NCBI GenBank assembly: GCA_040289475.1
Contig: PSLF01000004.1
Location: 1 to 33,180 of the forward strand
Source of the DNA: Acidimicrobiia bacterium
Lineage (GTDB): Bacteria; Actinomycetota; Acidimicrobiia; ATN3; PSLF01
Direction: 5' to 3'
Length of the DNA: 33,180 nt
The translations under genes were made by a program, and so were the position numbers. The first letter of the stretch is position 1; the number at the start of each line of letters is the position of its first letter. Positions 2,069 to 30,973 of this stretch are shown in pieces. The notes beneath the pieces were generated by a model. That model saw nothing but the letters and a program-made list of their open reading frames with translations. It made no database searches and was not told where the DNA came from.

Positions 2069-3412
2069 TCACTTGCCCTTGAATCTATTGAGGCTCTCCT
2101 CCCCAACCTTCTGTCGCAGCTCTGGATCATCGATACCTAGGCCAGTCTGGGGTGCCATGCACAAAATCCCAAGCTTTCCGACGTGCAGATTGTGGTGCAC
2201 CTCGTAAGCCGCCTGACCAGTCTCGTCGAGAGTGTAAGTCTTAGAAAGAATTGGGTGAATTTTGCCAAGCGCGACGAGTCTATTGGCTTCCCACGCTTCG
2301 TTGTAGTTGGCAAAGTGTGATCCGATAATGCGCTTGAGGTTCATCCACAAGTAGCGGTTGTCATAGATGTGCATGTAACCGGAGGTCGACGCACAGGTCA
2401 CAACTGTTCCCCCACGCTTGGCTAAAAACACCGATGCTGCAAAGGTGTCTCGTCCGGTGTGCTCAAAGACAATGTCGGGATCCTCGCCCCCGGTTAGGTC
2501 TCGTATCGCCTTTCCGAGTCTTCTGAACTCCGAAACATTTGGATTTCCTTCTTCGTCCCAGAATCGAAAGCCTTCCGCTTTTCTGTCTATGATCCACTCA
2601 ACCCCCATGGAGCGGAGAATTTCCGCTTTTTTAGGACTGGACACGATAGCCACGGGGAATCCGCCCCCATTGAGCACGTACTGACAGGCGAACCCCCCGA
2701 GCCCCCCAGCAGCTCCCCAGATGAGCACTACCTGTCCCTGCCGCATCCGGGCGGCATTCTCTCCTACTAGCATTCGATAAGTTGTCGAGTTGACAAGTCC
2801 AGGCGAGGCCGCCTCCTCCCACGTGAGGTGCTTGGGCTTTGGCATCAAGGCGTTGGCTTTCACAAGTGCGATTTCTGCTAAGCCTCCGAAGTTGGTCTCG
2901 AATCCCCAAATTTTCTGGTTTGGATCGAGCATCGAGTCCTCGTGGCCTTCTGGATCCTGAAGATCTACGACGTTGCAATGAACAGTGACTCTATCCCCAG
3001 GCTTCCAGCGCCTTACGGCTTCGCCGACCCTGAGGACGACACCCGAAGCGTCCGATCCCATCACATGGTATGGAAGGTCGTGTTTCTTTGTCGCGTCGGA
3101 AAGCTTTCCGTATTTCTCGAGAAACGCGAAGGTGGGTATCGGTTCGAAAATCGAAGTCCAAACCGTGTTGTAGTTGATGGAAGAGGCCATAACAGCGATA
3201 TATGCCTCGTCCGGACCGAGCTCGGGCAGCGGGACATTTTCGATATGGACAGACTTCCTGGGATCCTTGTCCTGGTGAGCTAAGCCTTCGAACATACCGA
3301 CATCTTCCTTACGGACGACGGCAGCTTTGTATGACTCAGGCAATGGGATCGAAGCTATCTCGTCGCCCGAAGCTCCCTCTAGAACGGCTTGCCGGATTTG
3401 TTCTACAGACAT
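2069..3412 (-). CDS. ccr: Crotonyl-CoA carboxylase/reductase
   Basis: A 447-residue medium-chain dehydrogenase/reductase matching Ccr over its full length. Ccr performs NADPH-dependent reductive carboxylation of crotonyl-CoA to (2S)-ethylmalonyl-CoA in the cytoplasm, the signature step of the ethylmalonyl-CoA pathway, and also supplies extender units for polyketides. The four CO2-pocket residues known from Kitasatospora Ccr (Asn81, Phe170, Glu171, His365) appear at a constant +1 offset as Asn82, Phe171-Glu172 (in WGFETNFGG) and His366 (in IIGSHFANYNEAWEANRL). That argues for a true carboxylating enzyme and not a simple acrylyl- or crotonyl-CoA reductase. The nucleotide-binding motif WGAAGGLGGFA is at 232-242. 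The ATG is preceded by a strong ribosome site (AAAGGAGG, about 10 bases upstream). It is divergent from the ethylmalonyl-CoA mutase gene, its pathway partner. Confidence 0.95.
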   Translation of the reverse strand: MSVEQIRQAVLEGASGDEIASIPLPESYKAAVVRKEDVGMFEGLAHQDKDPRKSVHIENVPLPELGPDEAYIAVMASSINYNTVWTSIFEPIPTFAFLEKYGKLSDATKKHDLPYHVMGSDASGVVLRVGEAVRRWKPGDRVTVHCNVVDLQDPEGHEDSMLDPNQKIWGFETNFGGLAEIALVKANALMPKPKHLTWEEAASPGLVNSTTYRMLVGENAARMRQGQVVLIWGAAGGLGGFACQYVLNGGGFPVAIVSSPKKAEILRSMGVEWIIDRKAEGFRFWDEEGNPNVSEFRRLGKAIRDLTGGEDPDIVFEHTGRDTFAASVFLAKRGGTVVTCASTSGYMHIYDNRYLWMNLKRIIGSHFANYNEAWEANRLVALGKIHPILSKTYTLDETGQAAYEVHHNLHVGKLGILCMAPQTGLGIDDPELRQKVGEESLNRFKGK

Positions 3413-3452
3413 ACCAACAATGGCCTCCTTTGCGACTGCGCCTAGACTCTTC

Positions 3453-3481
3453 GCGATAGGACTAGGCCTCTGTCATATCAA
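3453..3481 (-). promoter_or_regulatory. Candidate sigma-A-type promoter for ccr
   Basis: Read on the minus strand, TTGATA (5 of 6 to the -35 consensus) is followed after exactly 17 bases by TATCGC (a weak -10). It would start transcription about 35 bases before the ccr ATG, leaving room for the observed ribosome site. The -10 match is poor, so this is only a candidate. No cobalamin riboswitch motif was seen in the 3413-3782 control region, although Ecm is B12-dependent. Confidence 0.3.
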
Positions 3482-3580
3482 AATACCCACCCATGTCGGG
3501 GCTTTAGGTCGTGAGGTACTGTTGCGGCGCCCAGAGTTTGCCCCGCTGCCCTGTTAAAACTCGACTCTTTATGGGCACCC

Positions 3581-3597
3581 GCGCCGAATTCCGGCGC
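3581..3597. repeat. Inverted repeat in the ccr/ecm divergent region
   Basis: GCGCCG (3581-3586) and CGGCGC (3592-3597) form a perfect 6-bp inverted repeat around the 5-base centre AATTC. It lies in the 370-base region (3413-3782) shared by the divergent ccr and ecm genes. It could be an operator for a dimeric regulator or a small hairpin in the ecm leader. No T-run follows, so it is not an intrinsic terminator. The rest of this gap shows no gene I can support. Confidence 0.4.
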
Positions 3598-3782
3598 AGT
3601 TAGACTAGACAAGCCCGCTCTGCGGATTCAACCGCACTGTGATGTGGACGCACTCGCAGCCCGCAGCACCTAGCGTAGAAGGCAGACGGGTTTTCCAATC
3701 CAAGGTACAACTATGCGTTGACGGTCTCCGCTTGAGACTCGTCGATCCTTCTCGACCCAGTGAGCAGGGAGAGCGTGAGGGA

Positions 3783-5765
3783 ATGGCCGAAAAAGACCGC
3801 CCGTGGATAATGCGAACGTACTCCGGTCACACTTCTGCAGAGGCGTCTAACGCGCTCTACCGGACGAACCTAGCAAAGGGCCAGACCGGGCTGTCTGTTG
3901 CATTCGACCTCCCCACCCAGCTCGGATACGACCCCGATGACCCCATGGCACAGGGAGAAGTGGGTAAAGTGGGCGTCCCTATTACCAGCATCGCTGACAT
4001 GGAAAGGCTTTTCGAAGGAATCCCTCTCGAAAAGATGAACACCTCGATGACCATCAACGCTACAGCGCCCTGGTTGCTAGCACTATACGTAGCGGTTGCC
4101 GAACGCCAACGAGCGCCAGTAGATCAGCTGAGAGGAACTACCCAGAACGACATAGTCAAAGAGTACCTCTCCAGAGGAACTTACATATTTCCCCCACGCC
4201 CTTCAATGCGACTTACAGTCGATGTAATAGCGTTTACCGCTAAACATATGCCCAAATGGAACCCGGTAAACGTTTGCTCCTATCACTTGCAAGAGGCCGG
4301 CGCGACGCCCGTTCAAGAACTTGCGTATGCATTGACAACTGCTATCGCAATCTTAGACGCCTGCAGGCAATCCGGTCAGATCTCGGAGGACGAGTTTCCC
4401 TTCGTTGTGGGTCGCATATCCTTTTTTGTAAACGCAGGGATTAGATTCATCGAGGAGATGTGCAAACTTCGGGCGTTCGCCCTCTTGTGGGACGAGATAA
4501 CCAGGGAAAGATACGGGGTGAACGACGAACGCTTTAGGCGCTTCCGTTATGGCGTGCAAGTCAACTCCTTGGGACTCACTGAAGTACAGCCCGAGAACAA
4601 CATCATCAGAATCGCGTACGAAGCTCTGGGGGTTACGTTATCTAAACGAGCCAGAGCCAGCGCCATCCAGCTTCCCGCCTGGAACGAAGCCTTGGGGCTT
4701 CCCAGACCATGGGACCAGCAGTGGTCCCTCAGAATCCAACAGATACTCGCCTACGAGACAGATCTCCTGGAGTACCCAGATATCTTCGATGGATCTCCAG
4801 TTATAGAGAAGAAAGTCTCCGACATGGCAGAAGAGGCTCGCGCGGAGATTCAAAAAGTCCTGGAAATGGGCGGGGCTCTAGAGGCTGTGGAGTCAGGATA
4901 CATCAAGTCGCAGTTGGTCGCCTCGAACGCCGAGCGGCTCCGCAGAATCGAAAGTGGAGAACAGATCGTCGTGGGATTGAACGCCTTCACTGAAGCAGAG
5001 CCGTCACCGCTTGTGGCGCAAGACGGACATGCAATCTTGAGGGTCTCTCCCGAGGCAGAATCAGCCCAGATCGAGAAAGTGCGAGAGTGGCGCTCACGCC
5101 GTGATAATGAAGCTGTCAAAAAAGCGATCGCAGAGCTCCAGGATGCGGCGAAAAGTGGGGAAAACATAATGCCTGTGTCTATACGAGCTGCTCACGCTGG
5201 CGTTACGACTGGAGAGTGGGGAGCCGCTTTGCGAGAAGTGTTCGGTGAGTATAGACCTCCCACAGGAATCTCCTCGGTCGTCGCCCCTGCTGTAGCCGAG
5301 TCTTTGGGAGAGGTTCGAAAGAAGGTGCAGGCTGTATCCAAACGACTTGGACACCCTATACGAATGCTCATAGGAAAGCCGGGTTTAGATGGTCACTCCA
5401 ATGCTGCAGAACAGTTGGCTTTGCGAGCTCGAGACGCTGGCGTAGAAGTCATTTACGAGGGGATTCGGCTACTTCCCGAACAAATTGCTCGAGCAGCAGT
5501 CGAAGAGGGGGTCGACCTTGTGGGCGTGTCGATCCTCTCTGGTAGTCACATGGAGCTGGTTCAGCGCCTTCTCGAGAAAATGAGGGAGGAGGGCGCAACA
5601 GAAGTACCACTAGTTGTGGGAGGAATCATTCCTCCCGAAGACGCAGTCAAGCTTGAGGAGCTGGGCGTAGCGAAGGTATACACGCCCCAGGACTACGACC
5701 CAACGCAGGTTGTGTCCGAGCTAGTAGACATCGTCGCCGATTCATCGAGCAAGCGTGTTAGCTAA
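3783..5765 (+). CDS. ecm: Ethylmalonyl-CoA mutase (B12-dependent)
   Basis: A 660-residue adenosylcobalamin-dependent acyl-CoA mutase. It fits ethylmalonyl-CoA mutase better than methylmalonyl-CoA mutase: the N-terminal region has the Ecm-type RTYSGHTSAEASNALYRTNL, AFDLPTQLGYD and TSMTINATAPWLLALY. In contrast, methylmalonyl-CoA mutases carry AFDLATHRGYD and SVSMTMNGAV. Ecm converts (2R)-ethylmalonyl-CoA to (2S)-methylsuccinyl-CoA. A TIM-barrel substrate domain is followed by a C-terminal B12 domain with LDGHSNAAEQ (Asp536, His538), SILSGSH and VVGGIIPPED. The usual DxHxxG is DxHxxA here. I chose the ATG at 3783 (MAEKDRPW) because known Ecm proteins start at this point and a GTGAGGGA purine stretch precedes it. 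An in-frame ATG at 3639 would add 48 unconserved residues. It is divergent from ccr and directly followed by the cupredoxin gene. Confidence 0.92.
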   Translation: MAEKDRPWIMRTYSGHTSAEASNALYRTNLAKGQTGLSVAFDLPTQLGYDPDDPMAQGEVGKVGVPITSIADMERLFEGIPLEKMNTSMTINATAPWLLALYVAVAERQRAPVDQLRGTTQNDIVKEYLSRGTYIFPPRPSMRLTVDVIAFTAKHMPKWNPVNVCSYHLQEAGATPVQELAYALTTAIAILDACRQSGQISEDEFPFVVGRISFFVNAGIRFIEEMCKLRAFALLWDEITRERYGVNDERFRRFRYGVQVNSLGLTEVQPENNIIRIAYEALGVTLSKRARASAIQLPAWNEALGLPRPWDQQWSLRIQQILAYETDLLEYPDIFDGSPVIEKKVSDMAEEARAEIQKVLEMGGALEAVESGYIKSQLVASNAERLRRIESGEQIVVGLNAFTEAEPSPLVAQDGHAILRVSPEAESAQIEKVREWRSRRDNEAVKKAIAELQDAAKSGENIMPVSIRAAHAGVTTGEWGAALREVFGEYRPPTGISSVVAPAVAESLGEVRKKVQAVSKRLGHPIRMLIGKPGLDGHSNAAEQLALRARDAGVEVIYEGIRLLPEQIARAAVEEGVDLVGVSILSGSHMELVQRLLEKMREEGATEVPLVVGGIIPPEDAVKLEELGVAKVYTPQDYDPTQVVSELVDIVADSSSKRVS

Positions 5766-11918: not shown

Positions 11919-13034
11919 GTGTTAGAAGCAAAGAGGGACCGTGTGACTCGAGACGAAGTTCCGACACCTGCTCTAGTAGTGGATGCATCTGTCCTCGACG
12001 CGAACATCTCGAAGATGGCCTCCTACTTCGCGAACCGAAAGACCAAACTGAGGCCTCATTTCAAAGCCCATAAATGTGTAGAGATTGCCCGGGCCCAGAT
12101 TGCAAAAGGCAGCACTGTGGGCCTTACCTGCGCCACGGTAAGAGAGCTAGAAGTGCTAAGAGAAGCCGGCTTCCCAGATGTTCTGCTCGCCAACGAGATA
12201 TCCACCCAAGACAAAGCGGAAAGAGTCGCAAACGTCGCACGCGATATCTCCGTGAAAGTAGCTGTCGATTCGCGGCGACAGATCGACCTCCTCGAAGAAG
12301 CGTGTTCACAGGTTGGAGGCGAGTGCGGAGTATTGGTAGACATAAACGTAGGCTTGCCCCGCTGCGGAATCCCGCCAAGCCGTGCACCCAAGCTAGCACA
12401 AAGCGTAGTTGACTCCCCCCACCTTCGTTTTGAAGGGCTCATGGGGTACGAGGGGCACTGCGTACTGTTGGAGGATCCTCAACTCCGTAGGGATAACACC
12501 CTCGCAGCAATGGACCTGTTGCTCGAAGCCAAGGAGGCTGTGGAGGCGGCTGGCATCGAGGTGCGAATCGTCTCCGCCGGCGGAACCGGCACCTACGACA
12601 TAACCGGAAATCTAGAATTTGTCACTGAAATACAAGCCGGGTCTTATGTCTTGATGGACGACGCTTATTACAAGTTAGGTCTTGGGTTCGAAAGAGGGCT
12701 GTACCTTCTTTGCACGGTGATAAGTAGGAGCTCTTCTGCTATCGCAGTGGCCGATGGAGGTCTGAAAGCGCTCTCCACCGACCACGGATTGCCGACTGTT
12801 CTAGAGTCCAAAGAAGCGAAGGTAGCGTTTCTTTCGGATGAGCACGCCACAATACTGGCTCCACCCGACCGGAGTGAACTCGAAGAAGGCTCCAAGATTC
12901 ACCTGACCGTTACGCACATCGATCCGACTATAAACATGCACGACGAGCTGTGGGTACTTGACGGTGAAAAAGTCGTAGACGTTTGGCCCATTGCAGCGAG
13001 GGGATATGGAAGGCGATCAAACGGGGGGTGCTAA
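11919..13034 (+). CDS. D-threonine aldolase-like (fold-type III) PLP enzyme
   Basis: A 371-residue alanine-racemase-fold enzyme of the D-threonine aldolase/D-serine dehydratase-like family. The PLP lysine is Lys49 in [17 protein letters not shown] is a likely phosphate-binding loop, and [14 protein letters not shown] follows. Near the C-terminus [18 protein letters not shown] contains His333 and Asp335, matching the His-x-Asp pair that binds the divalent metal in D-threonine aldolases. Known members cleave D-beta-hydroxy-amino acids to glycine and an aldehyde, or dehydrate D-serine; the substrate cannot be fixed here. The GTG start is preceded by the purine-rich GGAAGCGAGG. Its end overlaps the chemoreceptor start by about 29 bases, so the two are probably co-transcribed. 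Confidence 0.85.
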
Positions 13035-15429
13035 CCGAGTGAGCGATTCAAACTCAGGTGGGGCGCATCACTCAGAAAATTCGGACAAGAAGTGGGCCCT
13101 CCAAGCCGACGAGGGAACGGATGACCTTCTAGTAGGGGACACTGTTTTTGCCTCCGGGGCACAGCCTTTGGGTGGCCCGCCGCTTGGTTCTCCTATACCA
13201 TTGGAAGCCCCTCCTGTCGAAGATTCGCTACCGGATACGCCTTCAGTCCCTCAGCACGGCAGCATCTCGAGCGGAATGGATTTCGGGAAACGGGCGGAGT
13301 TTTTCAAGGTTCTCGAGGAAACCCAATCCCAGCAACGGCGACAAGATTTTCGTGGCTCTCCGAACCCCGAGCAAGAGGCAGGGTCCCGCTCGCTCCAGGG
13401 CTTTCACGCCTCCAGGATCGGCGAAAAACCTGGCTCAGGCGGCTTTTCTCTTCCGGAAACGATGTCTGTAGAGGGGCCGGTTCCGCCGCCCCCCCAGCAG
13501 AGCAGTTCTAGCCCTCCGTTAGATAAGGGACTCGAGGAAGCTCTCTCGTTCCGCCCACTTCCCAGGACTCCAGCGATAAAAAAGGGGGAACTTTCTACGC
13601 CTGAAGAGGCACTAGCAGAGACAGCAGAGAGGGTGACTCCTTACCAACCCGCCTCGTTTATGGGTCCGGTGAGTGAGGCCCAGCGATCCGTGATCCCGCC
13701 CGAGATTGGCACGCCAGAGGTGCCAGCGCCGCGCGATCGCTATCGACTACCGGAGAGTCTAGAGGCCTCCGTAGAAAAAGTAAGTGAGGCCCAACCAGGT
13801 GAGGTCGATGGCGACAAGCACGCGAAGTCGGAAATTTCCCCAATCCCTGGCGAGGATACTCTCGCAGCCGAGTCGTTCAGACGGTTGTTGTGGATTTTCG
13901 GAGCAGTGCGCTGGCTGGGAGTGGTACCGGCCACGGCACTTCTGATAGTGCTTTGGGATCAGCTCCCCCATCCATTGGTTTCCGCTTTTGCTCAGGGGTT
14001 TGCAGCCGTGGGAACCGTGGTTCTCTTTCTGATCGGGAGGACTGTCAAGATAGAAAGGTTTACAACAGAACTCCCGTATCCCGTAGAGCTTGGAGTAGTT
14101 TTCCTCGAGACTTCGTGGATTTCGGTGTCAGTCTGGGCAGCTGGGGGACTTCGATACCCGTTCTACGTCTTCTTTTTCGCTCTCGCTGTAGCAGCGTGCA
14201 TGCGGGTACATCCCAATCCCCGCCGTGCTTTGGGTAATTGGGCTGTAGTCGTGGTGGGGTTTATAGCTACAGCACTCGCTTCAGGGTCATCACCCTCACA
14301 GTACTACCCTCACTATGTAGCGAGCTTAGCGACCTTCACTATCGTATGGGTCCTCGCCGTTGGCTATGGTTGGGTCTCTGACGCTGAAGTCGAGTTCGTA
14401 AAGAAATCGCATTCTCGACTATCCGAAGGAACCAAATTGGTCGGGGATGCCTTTCGAAAAGCAGCGTCTGGAGATTTGTCCTCAGTCCGTCTAGATCTCG
14501 AAGCGTTTCGAGCCGTAGACGAGCACGGCGTTTTCGCAGCCGTCGAGGAAGGATTCAACTCCATGGTGGAAAGCCTCGGCCGCCTCATTGGAGACGTCAG
14601 ATCGGCAGCCTCCTCACTCGACGCCTCGGTACAGGAAATTCAAACGGCCGCGGAGACCATAGCCACTGCTGCGATGGATCAGAGCGGCGGTGTGGCGGAG
14701 ACATCAGCTGCCGTACAAGAGCTAGCTACGACGGCAGCTGGAATCGCCGAAAGCGCTCGCACTGTGACTCACTATGCGGAGGAGACTTCGTCTTCTTCCA
14801 AGTCGGGAGCTGAGTCACTGGCTACTGCCTCGGCCGCGGTGCAAGACCTCTCTCAAAAAGTGCAGACCGTCCACGAAAAGACGCATCGCCTGGCCGAGCT
14901 GTCAGGTGAAATCTCCAAAATCTTGGAGTTCATCGACGACATCTCGCGTCAAACCAACCTACTAGCGCTAAATGCTGCTATAGAGGCAGCACGCGCCGGC
15001 GAGCAGGGAAGTGGTTTCGCTGTAGTGGCAGACGAAGTAAGAAAGCTCGCCGAAAGGACAGCTTCTGCCACCCACGAAATCAAGACACTCGTAGAAGAAG
15101 TCCGAAACGAGACGGCGGCTGCCTCCGAGGCGGTTGAGGAGGGGATGAGCTCTGTGGCGAGAGGGTCCGAGACAATTTCCGGGGCAAGGGAGGCACTAAG
15201 AAAAATCGAGGAGATGGCCGCCGCGACTGTCGATTCAACTCGGCGAATAGAGATAGCCACCGCAGAGCAGCGGCGCGCCTCTGACCAGGTAGCTATGGCC
15301 ACGACAAGTCTGGCGGCATCTGCCAAGGAGTTTGCAGACACCGCAACCAGCACTCGTCGGATAGCAGAACAGCTGGCTCGTACCGCCCAGGCTCTATTGG
15401 TCTCTTTAGAACGCTTCAAAACTCGCTGA
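13006..15429 (+). CDS. Methyl-accepting chemotaxis-type receptor with cytoplasmic low-complexity N-terminus
   Basis: The protein begins with ~290 residues rich in Pro, Ser, Glu and Gly (probably disordered), then has about six hydrophobic segments (encoded around 13880-14390). A HAMP-like linker and a C-terminal coiled-coil signalling domain follow. The hairpin tip is canonical: [20 protein letters not shown] followed by [20 protein letters not shown]. It should dimerise and control a CheA kinase, but no che gene is in view. No periplasmic ligand domain is visible; sensing may occur within the membrane bundle. I chose ATG 13006, with GAGGGG just upstream; TTG 12991 and GTG 13039 (after GGGGGG) are alternatives. 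It overlaps the preceding aldolase-like gene. The receptor class is certain; the signal is unknown. Confidence 0.9.
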
Positions 15430-23799: not shown

Positions 23800-24045
23800 A
23801 AGGATCGGTTACCGGTGCCGAGCGTTCTCACGCGCTGTGACCCTGCTCGTATTTTGGATGTCGCTTTGAATCTCGGCGGAAATAAGCTGCCTCTTGAGAA
23901 GCACTTCGATTTAAGTGTGGAAGCACACGATCCAGGAAAACAGTGAGGAAGTTTTTTCAAGACAAATTTTGATTTAAGTCGCCTACAGCTTCGTACGCGA
24001 TGGATGCGAAAGATATCGTTCTTTTGCAGAGGGTTTCACTAGGAG

Positions 24046-24678
24046 ATGGCAGACACTCACAGAGAATCCAATCAAAGCCAAAATTACACAGGCAAAACCA
24101 TTTCTTATAAAAAAAGCTCCATTCTGGGATGGCTAGCTCCAGTACTCGTCTCAGCAGGGCTGGCAACTGTCGCGATCGTAGTGACCGTATCGACGGCTCG
24201 GTCTCCCACGGTTTCGGGTCCTGCCGACAACTCCGAGGATTACGGGGTCGCCACACTCGGGCGTCCCGCTCCTGACTTCAACGTCGAGCTCATAGACTCG
24301 GGAACTTTCCGCCTATCTGAAGCCAAGGGTAAGGTCGTACTAATCAATTTTTGGGGCACCTGGTGCGCTCCGTGTGAAAAAGAGATGCCTCTCCTCCAGC
24401 GGGCCTCCAAAGCATTCGAGGGCGAGTTGATCGTTGTGGGCCTTGCGGTCAATGACTCCAAGGACGCAGTCTTGAAGTTCAGATCGCGTCTGGGGATCAC
24501 CTTTCCTGTCGGCCTGGATGACGGCCGCGTGGCCGGATACTACCTTGTATCAGGGTTTCCTACCACAGTGATAGTCGGTAAAGACGGAACCGTGGTGTCT
24601 AGGGAAAGCAGGGCATTTTTAGACTATGAATCACTGATCAAAGAGATCGACAAGGCTAGATTGCAGTCAGATTCTTGA
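24046..24678 (+). CDS. Membrane-anchored TlpA/ResA-type thioredoxin-like protein
   Basis: A 210-residue protein with a short polar N-terminus, one membrane anchor (about 27-50) and an external thioredoxin fold of the TlpA/ResA/AhpC-TSA type. The active site is NFWGTWCAPC (Cys107, Cys110), with the cis-proline loop SGFPTTVIV (Pro172) and the usual GRPAPDF entry strand. Such proteins reduce disulfides outside the membrane, for example in cytochrome c maturation or as general thiol reductants. The ATG is directly preceded by AGGAG, with AGAGGG further upstream. It is convergent with ccdA, its likely electron donor, and the last 12 bases of both genes overlap. Confidence 0.92.
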   Translation: MADTHRESNQSQNYTGKTISYKKSSILGWLAPVLVSAGLATVAIVVTVSTARSPTVSGPADNSEDYGVATLGRPAPDFNVELIDSGTFRLSEAKGKVVLINFWGTWCAPCEKEMPLLQRASKAFEGELIVVGLAVNDSKDAVLKFRSRLGITFPVGLDDGRVAGYYLVSGFPTTVIVGKDGTVVSRESRAFLDYESLIKEIDKARLQSDS

Positions 24679-25422
24679 CAGTCCATCCAAGCCGACAGCC
24701 GAAAATCCTCGCAATAGCCAGATAGAGATGATGGACACCTTGTTGAAAAAGAGAAGCGCACCGAACGCTACCAGAGTGACTCCCGCGATAGCCACGAGCT
24801 TACCCGAGTGTGGCCTCAGGCGCTTGGCCACCCCTAAAGCCTTGGATGTAGCAACAGCCACCAAAAGAAAAGGGACTCCTAGTCCCGCAGAGTAGGCGAG
24901 AAGGAGCAACGTTCCTTTCAACGCGGTGCCAGAAGTGTTGGCCACGGCGAGTACTGAGCCCAGAACCGGGCCTATGCATGGAGTCCACCCGAAGGCAAAA
25001 GCTGCCCCGAGTAGCGGTGCTGCCCACAGCCCTCTCTTGTTTCTAAGAAGTCCCTCTGCTGAAGAGGGTCGCACTGTCTTCATCAGCCAGGGGAACCGTC
25101 CGGCAGCAAACGCTACCAGAGCCGCTCCCATAATCACCACTACGAGTCCGGCAACTCTTCTCAGTACTACTTGGTTGGAAACCAACACCTGAGACACAGC
25201 CGAAACCGTTAAGTGGAGCAACACGAACACGGCAGTAAAGCCGATGACAAAAAGAATCACACCCAAAACCAGAGGTCCTCGGGGCACCGATCCTTCCTCT
25301 ATTTCGGAGGCTGACATTCCAGTAATCATTGAAAGATAGGCGGGGACGAGAGGCAGGACACAGGGAGACAAAAACGAGACCGTCCCCGCCACAAATGCTG
25401 AAGCTACTCCTACGCTCTCCAC
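24667..25422 (-). CDS. ccdA: CcdA-type thiol-disulfide transmembrane transporter
   Basis: A 251-residue protein with about six membrane helices that carries reducing power from cytoplasmic thioredoxin across the membrane to TlpA/ResA-like proteins. The two conserved cysteines lie in the expected intramembrane motifs: FLSPCVLPLVPAYLS (Cys21) and FGWTPCIGPVLG (Cys149). Length and topology match CcdA and not the larger DsbD. It starts with GTG that shares a base with the TAG stop of the NTF2-like gene (TAGTG), so translation is coupled. It is the last gene of a minus-strand run and meets the thioredoxin gene tail to tail. Confidence 0.93.
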   Translation of the reverse strand: MESVGVASAFVAGTVSFLSPCVLPLVPAYLSMITGMSASEIEEGSVPRGPLVLGVILFVIGFTAVFVLLHLTVSAVSQVLVSNQVVLRRVAGLVVVIMGAALVAFAAGRFPWLMKTVRPSSAEGLLRNKRGLWAAPLLGAAFAFGWTPCIGPVLGSVLAVANTSGTALKGTLLLLAYSAGLGVPFLLVAVATSKALGVAKRLRPHSGKLVAIAGVTLVAFGALLFFNKVSIISIWLLRGFSAVGLDGLSRI

Positions 25423-25808
25423 TACTTACTTCTCATCAAAAAGCGCTTGTCAAACGCAACACGCTCTCCACTGATCCCTAGAATTGCTACGCCTGCCCCA
25501 TCGAGAATCCCACCGTGGAGCAGATACTCCGAACAGATAATCCCATTGCTCCATACTGGCTCCCGCCACTCTATATCCACCTCATCGGGGCCCTCCACAA
25601 GCACCTGCAACGCTCTCTCGACAGATGTTCTGCCGTATGCCTGGATTGATAAATCTGAGACCTCCAAGTAAGCATCAGTTTCGTATAGCGATATTAGTGC
25701 AGCTACATCTTTTGATCGAAAAGCAGTTCGCCACCGTTTAAGTATCTGCCTTGCGACCATAGATTCATCTGGCAGTTCACTCGTACGCTTTCTCTGCTCC
25801 TCTTCCAC
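25422..25808 (-). CDS. NTF2/SnoaL-like protein
   Basis: A 128-residue protein of the NTF2-like alpha+beta barrel. It has a first helix ILKRWRTAFRSKDVAALISL followed by YETDAYLEV, a GRTSVERALQVL helix and strands IEWREPVWSNGIICSEYLLH and RVAFDKRFLM. Members bind or isomerise small hydrophobic molecules or act as accessory domains; the exact role is open. It starts with GTG, with GGAG about 6 bases upstream, and overlaps the ccdA start by one base. The 132-base gap before it (25809-25940) contains no gene I can support, so this pair may have its own promoter. Confidence 0.72.
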   Translation of the reverse strand: MEEEQRKRTSELPDESMVARQILKRWRTAFRSKDVAALISLYETDAYLEVSDLSIQAYGRTSVERALQVLVEGPDEVDIEWREPVWSNGIICSEYLLHGGILDGAGVAILGISGERVAFDKRFLMRSK

Positions 25809-25940
25809 TAATACTCCACTCCTTCATTCAGCTGATAGATGGCTTCAAATCCGACATGGAATAGAGAGGGCACAAAGAGCACCCAAAAACGTCTCCCGCA
25901 AAGGTTTACCGCGATTCACACATCAAGAGGTTTTAGGCTT

Positions 25941-26633
25941 TTATGCATTCGTATACCAGGAAAGAATTCTTCCTATCGTCTTCTTGTGGATCGAAACGCT
26001 GTGGCGAGAACCCTGCGATATGTCTTTAACGAGAGAGTTGACTCGCGCCCAGAGATCGTCGGCAGACTCAGCAAGCTCATCAACTACTCTTCTCCTCAAA
26101 GCCTCCTCGGCTGAATATTCTCTGGAACGGAGAAGAAAGTCTGCTGCCGCTTGCTGTCCTGCCACGGCCACAATGCGCTCAACAACGGTGTTCGAGAGAG
26201 TAATCCCCAAGCGAGAAGCAGGAATTCCAATTCTAAGTGTGGGCGCGGCAATACGGAAGTCGGAGAAAAGAGCAAGTGTCGCCCCGCCCCCTAGAGAGGG
26301 CCCTTCCAGTGCAGCGATCACGGGTATATCTAGGAGGGCGATGCGGGAGCAGACTTTCTCGAAAGCCTCCCCGAATTTTCTCAGAGCCTCTTCTTGACTC
26401 GACCATGGCGAATCGGGTCTGCACGATATCTCGCTCAAGTCAGCGCCAGAACAAAAGCACCCTCCAGCACCGCTCAAGATGACCGCTCTAGCCTCGCTGG
26501 TCTCAGCCTTGTCGAGGGCTTCCAAAAGCAAGAGCGTAGCTTCCAGGTCGAGAGCGTTTTTTCGTTCTGGCCGATTGAGGGTGATGTAAAAAGCGTCGCC
26601 AGTTAGATGAGTCCGAACTTTGGGCTCATCCAT
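25941..26633 (-). CDS. Enoyl-CoA hydratase/isomerase (crotonase) family protein
   Basis: A 230-residue crotonase. The oxyanion-hole regions are present: CFCSGADLSE and ALEGPSLGGGATLAL. In rat crotonase the catalytic acids are Glu144 and Glu164. Here the first falls in RIGIPASRLGI, where the usual P-E is P-A, and the second falls in a segment without a matching Glu. So hydration of enoyl-CoA by the standard mechanism is doubtful; another crotonase reaction (isomerase, thioesterase or decarboxylase type) or loss of activity is possible. The protein is shorter than the usual 255-265 residues. It lies 33 bases downstream of the GRAM-like/VOC gene on the same strand and is probably in the same operon. 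Confidence 0.85.
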   Translation of the reverse strand: MDEPKVRTHLTGDAFYITLNRPERKNALDLEATLLLLEALDKAETSEARAVILSGAGGCFCSGADLSEISCRPDSPWSSQEEALRKFGEAFEKVCSRIALLDIPVIAALEGPSLGGGATLALFSDFRIAAPTLRIGIPASRLGITLSNTVVERIVAVAGQQAAADFLLRSREYSAEEALRRRVVDELAESADDLWARVNSLVKDISQGSRHSVSIHKKTIGRILSWYTNA

Positions 26634-26666
26634 TTGGGTCTCGCCACCTCCAGATGGAGCTGAACG

Positions 26667-28190
26667 TCAGCCTTTCGGACGCTCCCAGATGGCGATACGG
26701 TTCCGGTCCTTGTCGTAAATGAAAAAGTAGCGTTCCCCGTCCGGACCATCCAGTATTTCTTCAGGAAAGGCGCCTTTTTGCCTGAGGGCTTCCCGAGCTT
26801 TTTGGATGTCTTCTACCTCTAGAGCAACCACAGCGCCTCTCTGGCTCCCTCCACCGGAAGAGCGCAGAGCAAAACGAGAATCTCCGGCCTTCAGCCATAC
26901 CACCTGTGTGCTTTTTTGGCCTTCCACCTCGAGGCCTAGAACACCCTCGTAGAACGACAAGGCTGACACGACATCGGAGACTTCGTAATATGCATGACCA
27001 ATTCCGATAATCGCGATCTGCTCTTCTGAAGGTTCCTCTGGCTCTTGGGGAGCTTCGGCTGACTCGACTTTGGCTTCGTGTGCTTTAGCACTTTCCTGTA
27101 CCAGCGCCTCTGTCGCTGTCAAAAACTCGCCTGATGGCGTTGCACTCAGAGAGAATGTTTCTGCTGCGACCGGCTCTTTCTCGGCCACCGGCGAGGTCTC
27201 CTCACTAGCCCGCACCTCGACGTGGTGATAGGCAGCCTCGGCTGCCGCTTCCCTTTCCTCGGCTTCGCTAGCGGCTCTACTCTGCTCTGGTGAAGCCGTT
27301 ACACTCCCGGAGGTTCCCTGAGCTGCTCCCTCGGCTACCCCTTTCAGATCGTCAGGGATTGGCGGTGCCTCCGGAATCAGCGGCTCCGATGGTGGAGGAG
27401 CTATAACGAACTGTCGCTTCTTCTCTCCCGCTTCTTCACTAGCGACCTTAGCTTCCTCGGAGGCAGAAGGCATCTGTGACGCCGCTTCTCCTGCCGCCTC
27501 AGAAGCCACGACACGAGCATCACTCTCTCCGCTCCCAGAAGCGCCTGCTTGCTCAGAAACCGCTGGGGACGGCGATGCATCGGCAGGCTCGGTTCGCACG
27601 GCTGCTGGCGCCTCTCCTGGACCTGCAATCTCGATCACTGATTGCTGGTGAGTCGGCGATGGCTCTACAACCGGCGGTGCAGACGGAGCTGGAGGGCTCC
27701 CAACGGATCGCGAAGGAGGAATGGGAACTCCTGGAGGAGGAGCAGGTGTCGGAGGAAGTGGCACCCCCGGAGCAACTGACGGCGGCGGCGGGGATGCCTG
27801 GGGAACCGGAGGTGGAGGAGGTGCGACAGGCTGGTATGGCGTTGGCTGCGGCTCTCCTTTTACTGCGCGTACCTGGGCGGCTACTTGAGATACCCAGTAA
27901 TCGACGTTGTCGACCGCAAACTGGTAATCCTGACCACCCGCGACTATCCGGATTGGGGTCTTGAGCCCGGTCTGTAGAACGCGGCCGACTTCGACCTCTC
28001 CCCTTCCTACGAAATCTACAGTGTTCAGTGCCAGTGATAAGTTTTGCATTCCCAGAGCCGCCTCTGGAGGCGCAGGTTGAAATACCAGCCACTCTTTCAT
28101 CAACCAAAGGTGGCCCTGGACCTCTCGCGCCCCGCGAGGAAGGTACTGAGCGGGACCGCTCGACAAGACGTCGTGACTTGCTTCACTCAT
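26667..28190 (-). CDS. GRAM-like domain / Pro-Ala-Glu-rich linker / VOC domain fusion protein
   Basis: A 507-residue protein in three parts. Residues ~15-105 (YLPRGAREVQGHLWLMKEWL then VFQP, later strands up to YWVSQVAAQ) look like a GRAM/PH-type domain. Residues ~115-390 are a low-complexity linker, first Pro-rich and then Ala/Glu/Ser-rich. Residues ~395-505 form one glyoxalase/VOC domain (IGHAYYEVSDVVSALSFYEG then VLGLEVEG, ending FIYDKDRNRIAIWE). Metal ligands are poorly conserved: the second His is replaced (GAVVALEVED), so it may bind a ligand without catalysis. Methylmalonyl-CoA epimerase is also a VOC protein, but the sequence does not support that role. The ATG has GGAGG upstream. It follows the carboxyltransferase gene by 53 bases. 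Confidence 0.75.
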   Translation of the reverse strand: MSEASHDVLSSGPAQYLPRGAREVQGHLWLMKEWLVFQPAPPEAALGMQNLSLALNTVDFVGRGEVEVGRVLQTGLKTPIRIVAGGQDYQFAVDNVDYWVSQVAAQVRAVKGEPQPTPYQPVAPPPPPVPQASPPPPSVAPGVPLPPTPAPPPGVPIPPSRSVGSPPAPSAPPVVEPSPTHQQSVIEIAGPGEAPAAVRTEPADASPSPAVSEQAGASGSGESDARVVASEAAGEAASQMPSASEEAKVASEEAGEKKRQFVIAPPPSEPLIPEAPPIPDDLKGVAEGAAQGTSGSVTASPEQSRAASEAEEREAAAEAAYHHVEVRASEETSPVAEKEPVAAETFSLSATPSGEFLTATEALVQESAKAHEAKVESAEAPQEPEEPSEEQIAIIGIGHAYYEVSDVVSALSFYEGVLGLEVEGQKSTQVVWLKAGDSRFALRSSGGGSQRGAVVALEVEDIQKAREALRQKGAFPEEILDGPDGERYFFIYDKDRNRIAIWERPKG

Positions 28191-28243
28191 TTCAGCCTCC
28201 TCGGATAGATCTCCCCATGAAGGTGGACTCCCCGCAACTTCCC

Positions 28244-29884
28244 TCAGACCGGAATTACCCCATGCTTCTTCCAGGGCCTGTCGAGCGTCTTTCGGACCGA
28301 CAGCTCCAGCGCTTTAATTATTACTTTTCGTGTCTCTTCAGGTCTTATGACGTCGTCCACGTGTGCGTGCCCCGCCGCCACGTACGGATCGATAGATTTG
28401 CGTACCCATTCGATTTTCTGTTCGCGTATCTTGTCTTGCTCCTCTGGAGGAGCCGCTGCAATTTCTTTTCGGAAAATAATGTTCACCGCTCCCTCGGGGC
28501 CCATTACAGAAATTTCGGCGGTTGGCCATGCAACGATGAAATCTGCCTCATAAGCCCGACCGTTCATCACAAAGTAACCCGCACCGTAGGCTTTGCGCAT
28601 CACAACCGTAACCTTCGGAACGGTTGCCTCGCTCACTGCATAAAGCATTTTGGCACCGTGCCTGATAATCCCCTGCTTTTCAACTTCCGAGCCCACTAAA
28701 AATCCTGGTACATCTTGGAGAAACACTAGGGGAATAGAGAAAGCATCGCACAACCACACAAAGCGTGCTGCTTTGTCTGCCGCATCATTGTCCAAGGCCC
28801 CGCCCATCACCGAGGGCTGACTTGCCACAATCCCCACGGGCCTGCCGCCCATCCGGGCAAGAACCGTAACTATGTTCTGGGCAAAATCCGGCTTTATCGG
28901 AAAGTAGCTACCGTAGTCAACAATGACTTCTATGACGTCATAGACGTCGTAAACCTCTTTAGGATCCGAAGGAACGATTGACAGCAACTCATCGCATAAT
29001 CGATCTACAGGATCATCGCACGGGGCTACCGGGGGATCTTCAAGGTTACAGGAAGGGAAATAGCTTAGGTAATCACGGATAGCCGACAGGCAGCTTACAT
29101 CATCGGGTAGTTCTAGGTCGGCACAGCCTGAGATACGGCAGTGGATCTGGGGGCCGCCCATCTCGTAGTCACTGATTTCCTCTCCAACGGCGGCACGCAC
29201 CAGGTGACTTCCCCCCAGCGCCATAGAACCCGTATTCGCCACCATGAATACAACATCAGCTAGGGCAGGAATGTAAGCGGTTCCTGCAGCACACGGCCCC
29301 ATGACAGCGGCGACCATCGGAACAACCCCCGACATTACGACCTGCTCTTTGAACAGCGCGCCTGCGGCCGCAAAGGTGCTACCAACCCCTTGTTGTATCC
29401 GGGCTCCTGCCGAATCCAGAAGCCATATAAAAGGGATCTTTTGGCGTAGAGACAGCTCTCGCAAACGGGCAACCTTTTGCTCACCTACATTGCCCATAGA
29501 CCCAGCCATCACGGTGAAGTCGTAGGCGCAGACCGCCACAGGTCGACCCTCGAGCTTCCCTAGGCCGCAGATTACGCCATCGGCAGGAGCGTCCTTTCCC
29601 GCCGCGGCTAGCTGAGGATCCATGTGATTGGCTAGCATCCCAAATTCCATAAACGATCCAGGATCGCAAAGTAGGTCGATGCGCTCGCGGGCAGTCAACT
29701 TTCCTTGCGAGTGTTGACGCTCCACATTGCTAGAGCCCCCCAGCTCTAGGGCTTTGTGTCTCCGCTTCTCCAACTCGTCCAGCAGTTGCTGAGAGTAGCG
29801 AAGGCCAGACTTACCTCCGGCCGCCTTCTTGGAGTTTCTCTCCAAGACCCCATCCTCAGAGCCACTTTCATCTGCAAAATTCAT
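28244..29884 (-). CDS. Acyl-CoA carboxylase beta (carboxyltransferase) subunit
   Basis: A 546-residue biotin-dependent carboxyltransferase of the AccD5/PccB type with N and C crotonase-like halves. The N half shows QGKLTARERIDLLCDPGSF, DFTVMAGSMG and the oxyanion segment GPCAAGTAYIPALAD. The C half shows FLQDVPGFLVGSEVEKQGII, RKAYGAGYFVM and AWPTAEISVMGPEGAVNIIF. It moves CO2 from carboxybiotin to an acyl-CoA. In Streptomyces PccB, Asp422 sets propionyl-CoA preference; the aligned residue here is Phe in YGAGYFVM, so the substrate may differ (acetyl-, propionyl- or another acyl-CoA). No biotin carrier or carboxylase subunit is in the window. It lies 75 bases downstream of a crotonase gene. Confidence 0.92.
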   Translation of the reverse strand: MNFADESGSEDGVLERNSKKAAGGKSGLRYSQQLLDELEKRRHKALELGGSSNVERQHSQGKLTARERIDLLCDPGSFMEFGMLANHMDPQLAAAGKDAPADGVICGLGKLEGRPVAVCAYDFTVMAGSMGNVGEQKVARLRELSLRQKIPFIWLLDSAGARIQQGVGSTFAAAGALFKEQVVMSGVVPMVAAVMGPCAAGTAYIPALADVVFMVANTGSMALGGSHLVRAAVGEEISDYEMGGPQIHCRISGCADLELPDDVSCLSAIRDYLSYFPSCNLEDPPVAPCDDPVDRLCDELLSIVPSDPKEVYDVYDVIEVIVDYGSYFPIKPDFAQNIVTVLARMGGRPVGIVASQPSVMGGALDNDAADKAARFVWLCDAFSIPLVFLQDVPGFLVGSEVEKQGIIRHGAKMLYAVSEATVPKVTVVMRKAYGAGYFVMNGRAYEADFIVAWPTAEISVMGPEGAVNIIFRKEIAAAPPEEQDKIREQKIEWVRKSIDPYVAAGHAHVDDVIRPEETRKVIIKALELSVRKTLDRPWKKHGVIPV

Positions 29885-29959: not shown

Positions 29960-30745
29960 TCACCGCATTTTCCAGCGAGGCTGGCGCTTTTCGAGAAAAG
30001 CTGCTATACCCTCTCTTGCGTCTTCAGAACGCACAAGCACCGACAGCTCGGCTTGCAAAAGCTCTAATGCAGCGGCATCGTGTAGCCACATGCTCGCGTA
30101 AAACGCATCCCGCCCCATCCTCATCGCTGCGGGACTCTTAGCTCGGAGCAAAGTGACCAGCTCATCTACCGCAGCGTCAAGCTCGTCTTTGGGAACTACT
30201 CGATCAACCACGCCTAAGGCCTCCGCTTCTTCAGCTGTAACTCTCTTTCCTGTCATCATCAACTGAAGGATCTTCTTGGGTGGCATCGCGCGTCTTAGAA
30301 CAACAGTGATCATCATCGGCCATAGCCCAACGTCGATTTCCGGCGTGCCGAAAGTAGCACCTTCGACGGCCACCACGAAGTCCGCTGCAGCTGCGAGGCC
30401 AAAACCTCCCGCAAGAGCGTGACCGTTGACTCGCGACACTACAGGTTTTCCGAGCTTTGCCATAGACATGAAAATGTCGGCGAGCCGCCCTCTCTCGTAG
30501 TGGGAGGCAACTGCGTCACCTTCCGCATCCGGAATCGTCGTAACAAGATCAGCTCCCGCGCAAAAAGCTTTGTCGCCGGCACCGGTCAGCACGACGACTC
30601 GGACTTGAGGATCGCTTTTCGCTTTAGCTAACCCGTCCTCGATTCCATGCAAAACAGTCGAATTCAAGGCGTTGCGCCTGTCCGGTCTGTTGATCGTTAT
30701 TAGCGCGACACCTTCTGACACTTCGTAGATGACCTCGTCGCTCAC
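29960..30745 (-). CDS. Enoyl-CoA hydratase/isomerase (crotonase) family protein
   Basis: A 261-residue crotonase acting on CoA thioesters. The oxyanion-hole segments are KAFCAGADLVT and VNGHALAGGFGLAAAADF. The first catalytic Glu is present (FGTPEIDVGLWPM), but the second is not obvious, since WPMMITVVLRR replaces the usual PGxGGTQRL. That pattern occurs in enoyl-CoA isomerase/hydratase-type members. I chose GTG 30745 (VSDEVIYEV) because AGAGGA precedes it; a TTG at 30784 would add 13 residues. It appears to be the first gene of the run with the carboxylase beta subunit. The divergent glycosyltransferase gene begins about 230 bases upstream, and no clear promoter was seen in that gap. Confidence 0.88.
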   Translation of the reverse strand: MSDEVIYEVSEGVALITINRPDRRNALNSTVLHGIEDGLAKAKSDPQVRVVVLTGAGDKAFCAGADLVTTIPDAEGDAVASHYERGRLADIFMSMAKLGKPVVSRVNGHALAGGFGLAAAADFVVAVEGATFGTPEIDVGLWPMMITVVLRRAMPPKKILQLMMTGKRVTAEEAEALGVVDRVVPKDELDAAVDELVTLLRAKSPAAMRMGRDAFYASMWLHDAAALELLQAELSVLVRSEDAREGIAAFLEKRQPRWKMR

Positions 30746-30973
30746 GTATCCTCTCTTCGCCTCAATTTGTCTTTGGATGCACAAGCTTTAATTGCATAAC
30801 GCGACCCCATTGATCCAAGGTATCGGTTCGTCGACCGGTCCCATCTACTTGGACCCTAGTCGTCATATAGAGGATTGTCGCTAAGCTCTAAAGGCTAACT
30901 GATTTCGGTATTTGTGGGCTTCGGGACCTAGCACGTTACACGAAGTTCGCACTGTTGACGGGGGAGCGAAAAG

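Follow-up and report, generated by a model that had tools for sequence, protein, structure and literature searches.

What does a protein with a GRAM-like domain at one end and a VOC domain at the other do among the genes of an acyl-CoA carboxylase cluster? The question is raised by positions 26,667–28,190 (minus strand) of the DNA analysed here, a 33,180-nucleotide stretch of an Acidimicrobiia genome (the window). A sequence-only reading had proposed the two domains and a long linker between them, had found no standard bacterial protein to compare with this architecture, and had suggested a scaffold or ligand sensor of acyl-CoA metabolism. Our searches agree on the architecture: no Pfam or NCBIfam model spans the GRAM–linker–VOC layout, and a library of open-licence papers yielded no description of it. 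The domains are of known kinds, and their fusion and its place in the cluster appear to be new as far as these searches go. The suggested role may hold in a more specific form. We tentatively favor, at somewhat less than even confidence, a non-catalytic two-headed adaptor in which a GRAM-like dock, a linker spacer and a VOC dimeriser or ligand binder would together serve the neighbouring acyl-CoA enzymes.

A three-part protein in a conserved gene cluster

The gene starts with ATG and encodes 507 amino acids in a single reading frame whose coordinates are exact, and a likely Shine-Dalgarno sequence (GAGGAGG, 28,196–28,202, minus strand) precedes it. Its product consists of a GRAM-like domain identified by profile searches (residues 1–112; 27,855–28,190), a linker delimited by composition, P-rich and then A/E-rich (residues 113–392; 27,015–27,854), and a VOC domain matching PF00903 (residues 396–500; 26,691–27,005), all on the minus strand. 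An orthologue of 516 amino acids with the same three parts was found in the MAG ATN3 (QEUQ01000015.1; L016:3311–4861). The source genome (1.97 Mb in 24 contigs, 96.8% complete) and ATN3 belong to different families, and the layout common to both led us to reject a chimaeric assembly. The architecture is genuine, and its recurrence in ATN3 together with the gene order makes a fault of assembly improbable.

The surrounding genes lie on the same strand and include, as the sequence-only reading had noted, a carboxyltransferase and crotonases, of which there are two. The fused gene is preceded by the crotonase-family gene ECH1 (29,960–30,784; PF00378, E = 1.3e-59; TTG start uncertain) and by CT, an acyl-CoA carboxylase-type carboxyltransferase (28,244–29,884; PF01039, E = 7.2e-167). 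It is followed by a second crotonase-family gene, ECH2 (25,941–26,633; PF00378, E = 2.5e-36), a gene for a SnoaL-like small protein (25,422–25,808), and one for a CcdA-type membrane protein identified by family search (24,667–25,422). The PF12680 match of the SnoaL-like protein (E = 0.0032, 18.5 bits) is below the cut-off of 27, and the ATN3 locus contains a 31% identical match to it. Gaps of 53 bp and 33 bp separate the fused gene from CT and ECH2, respectively. A survey of gene neighbourhoods, which had been proposed as a check, revealed the identical order ECH1–CT–GRAM-linker-VOC–ECH2–SnoaL–CcdA in ATN3, with TlpA convergent. The GC content at third codon positions is 0.52 in the fused gene versus 0.53–0.56 in three neighbours. 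A consensus scan for promoters and terminators yielded little beyond chance (promoter-like, 1 versus 2.5 expected; terminator-like, 10 versus 6.1).

Elsewhere in the window, a crotonyl-CoA carboxylase/reductase is encoded at 2,069–3,412 (minus strand; TIGR01751, 575.2 bits, cut-off 378.55). Beside it, at 3,639–5,765 (plus strand), lies a gene for a methylmalonyl-type acyl-CoA mutase that is below the equivalog cut-off (538 versus 876); the pair (2,069–5,765) possibly belongs to an ethylmalonyl-CoA pathway. The gene at 12,991–15,429 (plus strand) encodes a methyl-accepting chemotaxis-type protein, with matches only in its C-terminal part and below the cut-offs. The long P-rich N-terminal stretch of this protein represents another low-complexity extension in the genome. 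A role in phage defence was rejected, as PADLOC gave no match at E ≤ 0.01.

The N-terminal domain is related to GRAM through intermediate sequences

Pfam alone was silent on the N-terminal domain, which yielded no match even at E ≤ 10, whether taken from the source genome or from ATN3. In neither case did it reach the gathering cut-off of PF02893 GRAM (23.6 bits), and we therefore refer to it as GRAM-like and not as GRAM. The proposed relation nevertheless found support in profile intermediates. A two-sequence profile of the source genome and ATN3 gave weak matches in 7 of 395 other genomes of a phylum sample (8 of 396 if the source genome is counted), at E-values of 4.7e-5 to 0.003 and with five of the seven from a single family (f74). 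Searching the same sample again with the widened profile brought the number to 13 other genomes of 396. The 16-sequence alignment of GRAM-like domains includes two paralogues and leaves out a likely chance match (G620, L120; E = 7.6e-4) in a 999-aa frame. PF02893 was matched at E ≤ 0.1 by nine of the 16 family members, weakly (best E = 3.6e-5), and the L098 protein scored 21.9 bits against the cut-off of 23.6.

In the reverse direction, a profile of only seven stand-alone actinobacterial relatives matched the source genome (G000) at E = 5.2e-14 and ATN3 (G001) at E = 2.4e-14, with a best match of E = 0.005 in 14 other class genomes; because these seven had been chosen by the source/ATN3 profile, this is a reciprocal rather than an independent test. 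An hhalign comparison of the two profiles gave 98.2% over 104 columns. The columns G-x-L-x-L ... F-x-P ... F ... D are invariant in a 9-sequence alignment and nearly so in the 16-sequence one. These profiles, rather than structure, support a relation of the N-terminal domain to GRAM through intermediate sequences. A common profile links the domain to actinobacterial proteins that stand alone, some with PF02893 matches of their own, but it differs from GRAM and bacterial PH-like domains proper in being below Pfam detection on its own, and from the stand-alone relatives in its fusion to a linker and a VOC domain. Those relatives are encoded in open frames of 126–296 aa (the doubtful G620, 999 aa, apart) and, read by eye, seem to occur in other gene contexts. 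In three loci of family f74 (L098, L102 and L104), the GRAM-like gene is followed by what seems, by eye, to be an Rrf2-type regulator.

Structure prediction, which had been suggested for both ends, was informative for the VOC end and failed for this one. AlphaFold produced a poor N-terminal model from the two-sequence alignment (pLDDT 44.7), and no weight was given to a fold search with it, which listed many PH domains among 50 matches, none at E ≤ 0.001. The best match in a profile search of the PDB was 4u08_A (LIC11098) at E = 0.04, which we take as chance; chains of TFIIH p62 appeared at E = 0.31–0.74. TFIIH p62 has an N-terminal PH domain, the PH-type fold comprising seven strands and a C-terminal helix, and eukaryotes are well known to have both GRAM and PH-like domains. 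With 9 K+R and 11 D+E, the domain carries no net positive charge, which speaks mildly against acidic-lipid binding and fits protein docking rather than lipid binding. Passages of one report describe the bacterial PF08000 PH-like kind as being of unknown physiological function (PMC2817789). What is described of that kind points likewise to protein docking, though only as an analogy that does not imply membership.

The linker keeps its composition but not its sequence

The linker, put at about 275 low-complexity residues by the sequence-only reading, extends over about 280. Within residues 113–385, P (19%), A (19%), E (14%) and S (12%) together account for 63%, with no W or C; the ATN3 linker contains 36% P, 26% A and 23% E. 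Between the two orthologues the bias in composition persists although the sequence differs, as a spacer would be expected to show, and from its composition the linker is probably disordered. One P-rich stretch (APPP...LIP..PP; residues 264–279; 27,354–27,401), standing between the P-rich and A/E-rich halves, is alike in both linkers, which may be chance.

The VOC domain retains one of four metal ligands

A direct Pfam match, lacking at the N-terminal end, was obtained for the C-terminal end: PF00903 (Glyoxalase) covers residues 396–500 at E = 1.4e-11, with 45.3 bits against a cut-off of 20.6. The AlphaFold model (pLDDT 85.8, pTM 0.79; from two sequences) shows two paired babbb modules, and both score and fold place the domain in the VOC superfamily. 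Foldseek returned 454 PDB matches to this model at E ≤ 0.001, with E-values down to 1.3e-8. Among the 50 listed, the titles of 39 name a glyoxalase, lyase, epimerase or dioxygenase or refer to bleomycin/fosfomycin resistance, and the remaining 11 carry other or no functional names. The top match by E-value among those listed is 3r4q, named lactoylglutathione lyase (TMq 0.72–0.74). The highest TMq among the 50 listed belongs to the bleomycin-resistance protein 1qto (0.76), followed by TnmS1 (0.75 and 0.74); Fos enzymes reach up to 0.71, and methylmalonyl-CoA epimerases 0.46–0.49. Binding proteins and enzymes overlap in TMq, and the fold comparison alone does not separate them. The predicted likeness to bleomycin-resistance-type binding proteins, VOC dimers that bind a ligand without metal, is one of fold only and hardly above that to enzymes (0.76 for 1qto versus 0.74 for 3r4q).

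The metal site was read from an alignment with eight other VOC proteins, including the genome's own epimerase, at four positions that we take to be the metal ligands of the family. One of the four, the first (H399 here), is kept in both orthologues, in line with the earlier impression of an incomplete site. The second and third places are held by A441 and V454, and the fourth by A500 in the generic VOC register (L009, L011) or by W502 in the epimerase register (L105); the corresponding residues in ATN3 are H, R, T and then T or Y. The domain thus differs from other members of the superfamily in lacking the four-ligand set of metal-dependent VOC enzymes, as well as in sitting on a 280-residue linker. 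Because only one of the four usual ligands is kept, the usual metal-dependent chemistry appears unlikely.

A VOC domain beside a propionyl-CoA-carboxylase-type carboxyltransferase resembles the setting of a methylmalonyl-CoA epimerase, but besides the missing ligands the protein scores only 17.1 bits with the epimerase model TIGR03081 (cut-off 114.95). A different protein of the genome (C11:43756–44139) passes with 150.8 bits; its gene and that of a further carboxyltransferase, at C11:44372, are about 230 bp apart. The 150.8-bit protein is likely the genome's methylmalonyl-CoA epimerase, away from this locus, and the VOC domain is ruled out for that function. Three carboxyltransferase genes are present in the genome (G000:C11, C4 and C15), the best-scoring of which adjoins the protein that passes the epimerase cut-off.

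The VOC head could still be an enzyme of another kind, such as an isomerase or lyase acting on an acyl-CoA or related compound through an unusual or metal-free site, with the GRAM-like head only positioning it. The intact fold, the first histidine shared by both orthologues, the lyase name of the best listed fold match by E-value and the adjacent crotonases and carboxyltransferase would fit such an enzyme, as would E503, a neighbour of the fourth ligand position that might stand in for the usual residue. Nevertheless, ATN3 has Q at the place of E503, three of the four positions hold no usual ligand in either orthologue, and the epimerase score is far below a cut-off that another protein passes; we consider this alternative unlikely.

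Both ends look constrained

The N-terminal domain is 60% identical to that of the ATN3 orthologue, and the VOC domain 40%. Nei-Gojobori estimates of dN and dS are 0.36 and 2.26 for the GRAM-like domain and 0.70 and 1.47 for the VOC domain, with dS near saturation. Since dN is low relative to dS at both ends, both domains look constrained. The higher identity and lower dN of the N-terminal domain would suit a protein whose working part is the GRAM-like head, as in the relatives that stand alone, with a VOC tail of relaxed fold retained for dimerisation or stability only. The VOC domain itself argues against this: its dN/dS is about 0.47 (0.70/1.47, dS near saturation), its FY..VLGLEV core is kept, and a merely structural tail seems improbable to us.

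The layout looks restricted to one lineage

The order is represented by two genomes in our collection, and both have the gene. Of the 395 genomes in a class sample, only these two were matched by the GRAM-like profile at E ≤ 0.01 and the other 393 gave no match, in a search that scores few first-look candidates per genome (11 in the rows shown), so that a divergent copy may escape. A whole-protein search of 100 relatives returned nine matches, the source genome and ATN3 among them; the other seven cover the C-terminal part only: five of these matches begin no earlier than residue 392, and two begin within the linker (at 287 in G035 and at 378 in G007). In all, the fused protein is represented by two sequences, and within what was sampled the layout looks lineage-restricted.

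Such a distribution, with only two genomes to compare, would also result from a lineage-specific insertion without functional tie to its neighbours, the shared gene order being simply inherited from an ancestor of these two genomes of the same order. Conserved gene order is no proof of common function. Against an unconnected insertion stand the tight spacing on both sides (53 and 33 bp), the good ribosome-binding site and the preservation of the order in two different families, and we find this explanation doubtful.

The fused protein occupies the slot of a free biotin carrier

To place the cluster among its relatives, we surveyed the best 80 of 179 relatives of CT. The match starts at base 800 or later in 73 of the 80, and ECH1 ends adjacent in 54 of these 73. 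At least 3 kb follow the match in 63 loci, 32 of which contain a crotonase (ECH2 as query) within 4.1 kb after CT. A biotin-carrier motif (e.g. ESMKM), found by pattern and not by profile, occurs within 350 bp before ECH2 in 31 of the 32, the sole exception being ATN3. Within 4 kb, the motif is present in 38 of the 63 loci, including seven without a detected ECH2.

The fused protein therefore occupies the slot that a free carrier holds in relatives with this cluster. It shares with the free biotin carboxyl carrier of ECH1–CT–carrier–ECH2 clusters the position between CT and the second crotonase, but not the biotinyl motif or a biotin-lipoyl match. The motif is absent from the three minus-strand frames over 24,001–28,244, and the 507-aa protein has no match to biotin-lipoyl families and only VOC families at E ≤ 1; the motif scan and family search together rule out a hidden biotinyl domain in the gene.

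In the source genome and ATN3, PF00364 revealed no free small carrier at E ≤ 0.001; its matches lie in frames of at least 136 aa, and two of these, of 642 and 630 aa, look on visual reading like a biotin carboxylase with its carrier attached. With the small carrier of L058 as query, a copy with at least 50% identity turned up in just three of the 14 other class genomes searched (an 85-aa frame in G007, an 82-aa frame in G014 and a 304-aa frame in G019), all three of which also have copies in frames of at least 585 aa. The other 11 have only less similar carrier copies. With a close free carrier in just three of these 14 genomes, its absence does not set this order apart. A farther-reaching idea is that, in this order, the fused protein has replaced the free biotin-carrier subunit in its place and perhaps in some of its work. 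It would then be a non-biotin scaffold or allosteric sensor coupling CT to the crotonases, with a separate fused biotin carboxylase/carrier subunit supplying the carboxyl group; this strikes us as very unlikely.

A possible adaptor for acyl-CoA enzymes

The non-catalytic adaptor that we tentatively prefer would act through its two heads. The GRAM-like head may dock to the membrane or to a partner protein, and the P/A/E-rich linker, probably disordered, would provide a long spacer. At the other end, the VOC head has an incomplete metal site; rather than carrying out metal-dependent catalysis, it may dimerise and bind a partner or a small ligand. Made together with CT and the crotonases, such an adaptor could tether or sense that acyl-CoA module.

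A fusion of a GRAM-like domain with a VOC domain that has lost most of its metal ligands and is probably metal-less, kept in two genomes within an acyl-CoA carboxylase cluster, offers a concrete example, open to testing, in which such a domain is linked to metabolism. If real, the exchange in the slot, with a biotin carrier out and a tethered adaptor in, could illustrate how a carboxylase module is remodelled.
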